DNA from: an uncultured Spirochaetaceae bacterium | Lineage (GTDB): Bacteria; Spirochaetota; Spirochaetia; Sphaerochaetales; Sphaerochaetaceae | DNA length: 64,000 nucleotides | Reading direction: 5' to 3' | Assembly (NCBI GenBank): GCA_944388955.1 | Contig: CALXKJ010000002.1 | Span: 62,001 to 126,000, forward strand | Shown: positions 35,633 through 54,329 of the stretch, in pieces | How the letters are laid out: every line of letters starts with the position of its first letter | Position numbering within the stretch: the stretch's first letter is position 1 | Position numbers and translations under genes: made by a program | Notes under the pieces: model-generated | Seen by the model: only the letters and a program-made list of their open reading frames with translations | Told to the model about the DNA's origin: nothing | Database searches by the model: none

Positions 35633-36580
35633 ATGATCGATATAATCACTAATATGCTGTCGATGTGCATACCATTTTCTGTCGCTCTTCTTCTGGCTTC
35701 AACTGGAGAGATGTTCAATCAGCGAGCTGGTGTATTCAATCTCGGATGCGAAGGCGTGATGGCGATGGGTGCGTTTGTCGGTATGCTCATACCATTCCTT
35801 GCTGGTGGCGGTATGCGTGTTTCCCAGTGGTATAATGTTCTGGGCTTCGCTGCAGCTGCGGTTCTTGGCGCGCTCTTCGGTCTTTTCTTCGGCGTCATCA
35901 CAGTCACATTCAGAGCCCCGCAGGGCATTGCTGGCATAGGACTTCAGATGTTCGGAGTAGGGTGTGCAGGTACGCTCTTCAGGCATTTTGTCGGAGGCAC
36001 CCAGTCAATTCCGGGAATCCCTGATGTGGATATACCGCTTCTTTCGAAGATACCTGTTATCGGGGAGATATTCTTCTCCCACAATGCTGCAAGCTATCTC
36101 GCATACATCTTCATTCCGGTAGCATGGTACATTCTTTTCCGTACCCCATGGGGACTGAAGGTAAGGGCCGCGGGTACGAATCCACGAGCCGCTGATTCAA
36201 TGGGTGTCAATGTCAGCCGTACACGCTATGAATCTCTTATGGTCGGAGGTGCCCTTGCAGGTCTTGCCGGAGCCTACCTCTCGATAGCCCAGGCGAAGAT
36301 GTTCTCTGACACGCTTATATCAGGGCGCGGATTCATTGCAGTTGCACTTGTGTATTTCGGGCATTGGAATCCTGTGAAGATCATGGGTGGAGCGCTTCTC
36401 TTTACATTCGCGCAGACTTTCCAGACAGTTGTCCAGAGCTTCGGAATATCCTTCCCGTATGAGCTTGCTGTCATGCTGCCATATGTCCTTGTCATTGTTG
36501 TTCTCGCGTTCACGTCAAGAAACGACATGTCGGCACCAACATCGCTTGGAAAGCCATTCAACAGGGAAATAAGAACCTGA
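35633..36580 (+). CDS. nucleoside ABC transporter permease 2
   Basis: A 315-residue partner permease with the matching motifs QRAGVFNLGCEGVMAMGA and AAGTNPRAADSMGVNV. The ATG at 35633 is one base after the previous stop and follows AAGGAGG. A longer in-frame start lies within the previous gene and is rejected. It is the last gene of the importer operon, followed by a strong terminator. Confidence 0.92.
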   Translation: MIDIITNMLSMCIPFSVALLLASTGEMFNQRAGVFNLGCEGVMAMGAFVGMLIPFLAGGGMRVSQWYNVLGFAAAAVLGALFGLFFGVITVTFRAPQGIAGIGLQMFGVGCAGTLFRHFVGGTQSIPGIPDVDIPLLSKIPVIGEIFFSHNAASYLAYIFIPVAWYILFRTPWGLKVRAAGTNPRAADSMGVNVSRTRYESLMVGGALAGLAGAYLSIAQAKMFSDTLISGRGFIAVALVYFGHWNPVKIMGGALLFTFAQTFQTVVQSFGISFPYELAVMLPYVLVIVVLAFTSRNDMSAPTSLGKPFNREIRT

Positions 36581-36599
36581 CAGATTCTAACGCAGAATG

Positions 36600-36629
36600 C
36601 ATCTCCTCCGTCCGGGGGAGATGTTTTTT
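36600..36629 (+). terminator. intrinsic terminator of the nucleoside importer operon
   Basis: CATCTCC (36600-36606) pairs with GGAGATG (36617-36623), with a further CCG/CGG pairing inside, followed by six T. It is 20 bp after the last stop. Confidence 0.9.
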
Positions 36630-53890: not shown

Positions 53891-54268
53891 ATGAGAAAGA
53901 GTACAGTTGCTGTTCTTGTTATATCGATTATTCTTCTTGTCGCTGGTATAGGGTTGTCAGCATACGGTGTGTATCTCAACGCGCCGCACTACGCTTCATA
54001 TCATTATGGTGAAGGATTTTATAGCTATTCCGTGAGGTATCGTCTCGACATGCCTGGAAATGGTAATGGGTTCACAGCCTTTGGCCGTCTCTCATTCGAT
54101 GCAGGTCTTGTGCTTATGGCGATTTTCGTCTTCCTCCTTGTCTCGGATAAGAAGGATGAGAAGATTGCAGACAGAAAAGCAGGGAACTTCACGAAGGCAG
54201 AGCATGAAAAGGCAAAAAGCGAAGCTATAGATGTTTCTGCCCAAAGCGAAGAAGAAAAGAAGGAATAA
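53891..54268 (+). CDS. small two-helix membrane protein, unknown function
   Basis: A 125-residue protein with membrane helices at about residues 6-28 and 66-84, an exposed aromatic loop between them (YASYHYGEGFYSYSVRY) and a charged cytoplasmic tail of about 40 residues rich in K and E. The ATG at 53891 follows AGGAGAAAAAGGAA; a longer upstream start would add 13 polar residues. Upstream, CACACAT/ATGTGTG (53842-53863) could form a stem. No family was recognised. Confidence 0.68.
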   Translation: MRKSTVAVLVISIILLVAGIGLSAYGVYLNAPHYASYHYGEGFYSYSVRYRLDMPGNGNGFTAFGRLSFDAGLVLMAIFVFLLVSDKKDEKIADRKAGNFTKAEHEKAKSEAIDVSAQSEEEKKE

Positions 54269-54300
54269 TCCTTTTCCATCTATCCCCGATAAGCTATTAT

Positions 54301-54329
54301 CCTCCTGAGAAATCAGGAGGTTTTTTATG
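54301..54329 (+). promoter_or_regulatory. terminator-like hairpin that contains the ribosome site of the AEC gene
   Basis: CCTCCTGA (54301-54308) and TCAGGAGG (54313-54320) form a perfect 8-bp stem with a GAAA tetraloop. Six T (54321-54326) follow, then the ATG at 54327. The 3' arm is the Shine-Dalgarno sequence and the U tract is its spacer. Transcripts from upstream should terminate or hide the ribosome site. A possible promoter (TTTTCC 54272-54277, 17 bp, TATTAT 54295-54300) would start inside the 5' arm and leave the site free. Confidence 0.8.

Follow-up and report, generated by a model that had tools for sequence, protein, structure and literature searches.

Hairpins that bury a ribosome site only in read-through RNA are known from transposons, from phage T4 and from the sigG gene of Bacillus subtilis. 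The leader stem-loops of IS10 and IS50 limit the translation of transposase and protect against outside transcription. A stem-loop that sequesters the ribosome-binding site (RBS) has also been described in the leader of the IS200 transposase (PMC12594629). In the T4 genes I-TevI, I-TevII, I-TevIII and segB and in mobE of phage Aeh1, transcripts of upstream promoters have their ribosome site buried in a stem, and in I-TevI and similar genes the promoter adjoining the gene starts RNA too late for the stem to form; RBS-sequestering structures are further described for T4 e, soc and others (PMC2988022). These phage cases serve timing control, and their stems are not described in that source as terminators with a U-tract spacer. 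The hairpin of sigG was proposed to stop RNA that reads through from the spoIIG operon from being translated, and it is unable to form in RNA from PsigG (PMC5942855); it is very large, with at least 20 pairs, and is likewise not described as a terminator.

We analysed a 64,000-nucleotide stretch of DNA (the window) from the 2.1-Mb draft genome (G000) of a gut spirochaete, in which the gene for an AEC-type permease is preceded by a hairpin at 54301-54320 of the form CCTCCTGA-GAAA-TCAGGAGG, followed by T6 and then by the ATG at 54327 (Table 1). The permease gene has its nearest named relatives in Candidatus Ornithospirochaeta and other uncultured Spirochaetales. The hairpin resembles the I-TevI type in that the Shine-Dalgarno (SD) sequence is predicted to be buried in read-through RNA but, unlike the T4 stems as described, it runs into U6 and is apparently where the upstream transcript ends. 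With sigG it shares a chromosomal, cellular gene whose own-promoter RNA lacks the hairpin, again as predicted for the AEC gene, although the AEC stem has 8 pairs and a U tract. The elements IS10, IS50 and IS200, unlike the AEC gene, are mobile and limit their own transposition, and we know of no intrinsic terminator fused to their leaders. Ordinary intrinsic terminators have the same GC-rich stem, tetraloop and U6, but in the AEC hairpin the 3' arm is the ribosome site of the next gene, and the 5' arm lies between the -10 element of that gene and its predicted start. Our search of the literature, which was incomplete and so gives weak evidence of novelty, yielded no RBS hairpin that also serves as an intrinsic terminator with a U-tract spacer. 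The translational half of the arrangement is a known device; its fusion with a terminator appears to be new.

Table 1. Features at the start of the AEC permease gene (positions in the window)
Feature	Coordinates	Strand	Basis or remark
Upstream gene, 125 aa from an SD-preceded ATG	53891..54268	+	Pfam, NCBIfam: no match
-10-like TATTAT, putative own promoter of the AEC gene	54295..54300	+	TATNAT recurs in orthologues
5' arm CCTCCTGA	54301..54308	+	between -10 and predicted start; 8/8 bases kept in G030
Predicted transcription start, 7-8 nt past the -10	54307..54308	+	inferred from the -10 position
Loop GAAA (G030: GTTT)	54309..54312	+	sequence
3' arm TCAGGAGG with Shine-Dalgarno AGGAGG at 54315-54320	54313..54320	+	sequence, folding
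T6, terminator U tract and SD-to-ATG spacer	54321..54326	+	sequence
AEC-type permease gene, 302 aa	54327..55235	+	PF03547 (Mem_trans / AEC), E 2.2e-13

The perfect 8-bp stem, the GAAA loop, the T6 run and the ATG directly after it match the sequence to the base, as an earlier note on this DNA had stated, and the reading of AGGAGG in the 3' arm as the ribosome site, with the U tract as its spacer, is likewise borne out. Five of the eight pairs of the GC-rich stem are G-C, U6 follows directly, and the isolated hairpin folds with a computed energy of -13.3 kcal/mol. The upstream gene is co-directional and its stop codon, at 54268, lies 32 nt before the stem in an intergenic gap of 58 nt, in which the hairpin is the only terminator-like site; the neighbourhood of the two genes is kept in many relatives. 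The expectation by chance was estimated from 60 simulated 64-kb sequences with the dinucleotide make-up of the window, in which both strands were searched for perfect stems of at least 8 Watson-Crick pairs with loops of 3-8 nt, followed by six positions of which 5 or more are T. The window contains 3 such hairpins on its two strands, compared with 0.13 in the simulations, and one of them is located 4-8 nt before an ATG or GTG, a placement seen in none of the 60 simulated windows. The whole 91-nt surroundings have no unusual stability (z -1.96); what is unusual is the local hairpin with T6 at the start codon rather than the wider region.

The upstream sequences of the permease orthologues have little in common except a -10-like TATNAT near the ATG. 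Of 44 distinct orthologues, 14 have this motif at -24..-19, against 0.47 expected from shuffled sequences; a further 10, among them the window (-32) and its sister species (-34), have it at -35..-25. In the window, a weak sigma-70-like match has TATTAT as its second hexamer. Given the conserved -10, RNA made from the gene's own promoter is expected to begin near 54307, without most of the 5' arm. The promoter that the earlier note had placed here is therefore well supported by the comparison of orthologues, which also puts the predicted start close to 54307, but its -35 is weak. In most other orthologues the predicted start falls directly before the ribosome site, so that very short leaders are to be expected. 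Several AEC orthologues (L017, L018 and L024, and also L014 and L047) have no visible Shine-Dalgarno sequence or TATNAT near the ATG, and several of those lacking an SD share CTGATAAAACG..GTAGCC directly before the start; these genes may be leaderless or use another mode of initiation.

The nearest relative (G030), whose permease is 80% identical at the protein level, has the start region CCTCCTGA GTTT TCAGGAGG TTTTTTTC ATG. All 16 stem bases and T7 are kept, and three of the four loop bases have changed. Fourfold-degenerate sites of the two permease genes are 36.5% identical, which is near saturation, and the probability that the 8 bases of the 5' arm stay unchanged at that rate is about 0.0003 (0.365 to the 8th power). 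The 5' arm thus appears to be under constraint, and the ribosome site itself does not need those bases. Conservation of the stem in related genomes, which the earlier note had named as a check, accordingly holds for every stem base in G030 but is confined to two species, the window's and G030, since the exact stem was found in no other AEC orthologue.

Relatives differ from this pair in where the upstream gene ends its transcript. In six orthologues (L005, L006, L034, L055, L013 and L019) a canonical terminator is located between the upstream gene and the -10, and a seventh (L020) was judged by eye to have one too; all seven have the same upstream neighbour. No separate terminator is present in the gap of the window or its sister; the hairpin thus follows a gene with no other terminator, and the relatives' terminator sits elsewhere. 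It follows most simply that the hairpin is that terminator, now located 3' of the -10, and it seems, from this comparison, to have replaced the separate terminator of the upstream gene. In L010, which also lacks a separate terminator, the ribosome site forms a 14-pair stem with sequence on the 5' side of the -10.

Folding predicts that opening the SD costs 9.4-13.1 kcal/mol when both arms are present and 3.0-6.6 kcal/mol without the 5' arm. For read-through RNA the predicted opening cost is 9.4-12.5 kcal/mol, and the predicted probability that the SD is unpaired is at most 0.036. A transcript that begins at the predicted start would retain some pairing between the SD and early codons, which accounts for the remaining cost. 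The earlier proposal that read-through RNA is untranslatable receives partial backing, in that by computation the incoming RNA needs several kcal/mol more to expose its SD. Pairing of the ribosome site with an upstream tract, with a -10-like element in the loop, is also predicted in L004, L005, L006, L010, L025 and L026, and most orthologues have no U tract after the ribosome site. When SD pairing with the gene's own upstream tract was compared with dinucleotide-shuffled copies in the 44 orthologues, it exceeded the shuffles with a combined Z of -4.5 (8 orthologues at p<0.05, 5 at p<0.01), against -2.3 for reversed and -0.6 for coding controls; swap tests gave z -4.3 and, with reversal as the control, -2.4. 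The pairing signal is real but partial: because the reversed control also scores, some of it is composition, and it is carried by about one-fifth of the orthologues. In three genomes sampled for ribosome-site pairing around near -10 elements there was no excess, which means that genes with a near -10 do not share the feature in general.

The same layout occurs at other genes of the genus. A scan of 48 genomes for CCTC..GAGG-TTTT..ATG returned 99 sites, compared with 24 for the reversed pattern, and among sites with a T run of at least 6, the stem extends by at least two further Watson-Crick pairs in 15 of 20 cases (1.35 expected). Some of these sites are plain terminators before chance ORFs and others are real gene starts, including those of an ABC ATPase (PF00005; 2 species), an Ldh_2 dehydrogenase (PF02615; 3 species), a glycogen-synthase-type gene (PF08323; 3 close species) and an Hsp33 gene (PF01430; 3 species). 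Ten matches were rejected, with only short ORFs following (L148, L152, L153, L155, L156, L158, L175-L177 and L180). The Ldh_2 gene, which is unrelated to the AEC gene, has a hairpin built in the same way, and its stem covaries. With starts located by tblastn, its terminator hairpin was recovered from five related species whose stems differ around an invariant TTATACT in the loop; in these five sequences, a small set trimmed by eye to the stem before alignment and with a relatedness that inflates such counts, 94.5% of cells are paired and 6 of 11 pairs have changed on both sides, and the register control is clear, all shifted registers being worse. Conservation of the glgA hairpin is confined to close species, and it is missing from the glgA of the window's own genome.

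Other loci resemble this layout to varying degrees. In several species, a gene beginning MDIRR[IL]PLWEGRNATYM, which has no Pfam match (L172, L212, L215, L217 and L226), has a stem that joins the ribosome site to CCTCTT across a repeated TATTATATTATA, and this may be a further case. The DUF3800-I RNA (Rfam RF02969) is found in three related genomes (L161:1143-1268, L162:1067-1191 and L173:1132-1257); in L161 and L173, and also in L163, a gene of 231-233 aa begins directly after the terminator of this RNA. The gene seems to use the 3' arm of that terminator, GGGAGG, as its ribosome site and the T run as its spacer, an overlap like that at the AEC gene. Within the window, a terminator-like hairpin, ATCTCCTCC-GTCC-GGGGGAGAT with T6, lies at 36598-36624 between an ABC-type permease ORF that ends at 36580 and a 400-aa ORF started by TTG; it was rejected as an SD case, as the gene behind it most likely starts further downstream. 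In a 459-kb sample of the window's genome (L088-L107 and the window), only the AEC case is convincing, and SDs that are not followed by a T run showed no excess of stems in G000 or G035. The same 459 kb contain only 21 strict terminator-like hairpins on both strands, and classical intrinsic terminators look scarce in this genome. We consider it possible, though somewhat less likely than not, that the genus repeatedly builds insulated starts in which the SD and a tract upstream of the transcription start form a hairpin, often a terminator, with the -10 in the loop or just before the stem. On this view the stem would change in sequence without losing the pairing, the -10 or the ribosome site, and only the gene's own RNA would be translated.

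At the AEC locus, the intrinsic terminator of the upstream gene probably doubles as the ribosome site and spacer of the permease gene, which would be expressed mainly from its own promoter. Polymerase arriving from upstream would transcribe the two arms; its RNA should mostly end in the U tract, and any that passed it would carry a buried ribosome site. Polymerase starting at the AEC promoter near 54307 would omit nearly all of the 5' arm, and its RNA, lacking that arm, would escape both termination and sequestration. The anatomy, the conserved -10, the constraint on the 5' arm and the missing separate terminator come from the sequence and its comparison with relatives; the start site, the efficiency of termination and the difference in translation are predicted. 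The insulation that the earlier note had read into the locus thus gains from the conserved -10, the 5'-arm constraint and the cost of opening the SD, but is weakened by a stem limited to two species and by the lack of a U tract in most orthologues.

It is conceivable, if rather unlikely, that the hairpin is nothing but the terminator of the upstream gene overlapping the next ribosome site in a compact gap, the silencing of read-through RNA being an unselected by-product. The hairpin is indeed the only terminator in the gap, where relatives have ordinary ones, a GGAGG ribosome site offers a ready-made GC-rich arm on which terminators could easily arise, and the stem occurs in two species only. 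Against such a by-product, other orthologues pair the ribosome site without a U tract, L005 and L006 do so besides having a separate terminator, and the layout is also seen at other genes, whose stems covary and hold the -10 in the loop. Chance alone, for which the ordinary stability of the wider 91-nt region might speak, is the least credible explanation in view of the simulation and of a stem kept at near-saturated divergence.

A terminator arm that holds the SD is a usual output platform of regulated leaders, and the hairpin could on that ground be such an element (an attenuator, a riboswitch platform or a thermosensor) in RNA that starts at a more distant upstream promoter, with a signal controlling termination or access of the ribosome. 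We regard this as improbable: Rfam gave no match at E up to 1, just 32 nt without any other conserved structure separate the upstream stop codon from the stem, and RNA made from the conserved -10 would begin within the hairpin. Still less probable is a DNA operator for a repressor in the dyad around the -10. Dyads do enclose the -10 in several orthologues, for instance L006 and L010, but those of the window and its sister lie beside it and end in a T tract, and orthologues with differing arm sequences preserve the pairing, as fits RNA better than the site of a single protein.

If the terminator does double as the ribosome site of the permease gene, genomes could be searched by a simple rule (an SD in the 3' arm, a -10 between or just before the arms and a U-tract spacer), a predicted terminator that overlaps a start codon would not necessarily be an annotation error, and the element would offer a compact insulator for gene design. 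A single 26-nt element would then end one gene and shield the next from leaking transcription, and hairpins that bury a ribosome site only in read-through RNA would also serve ordinary chromosomal genes.
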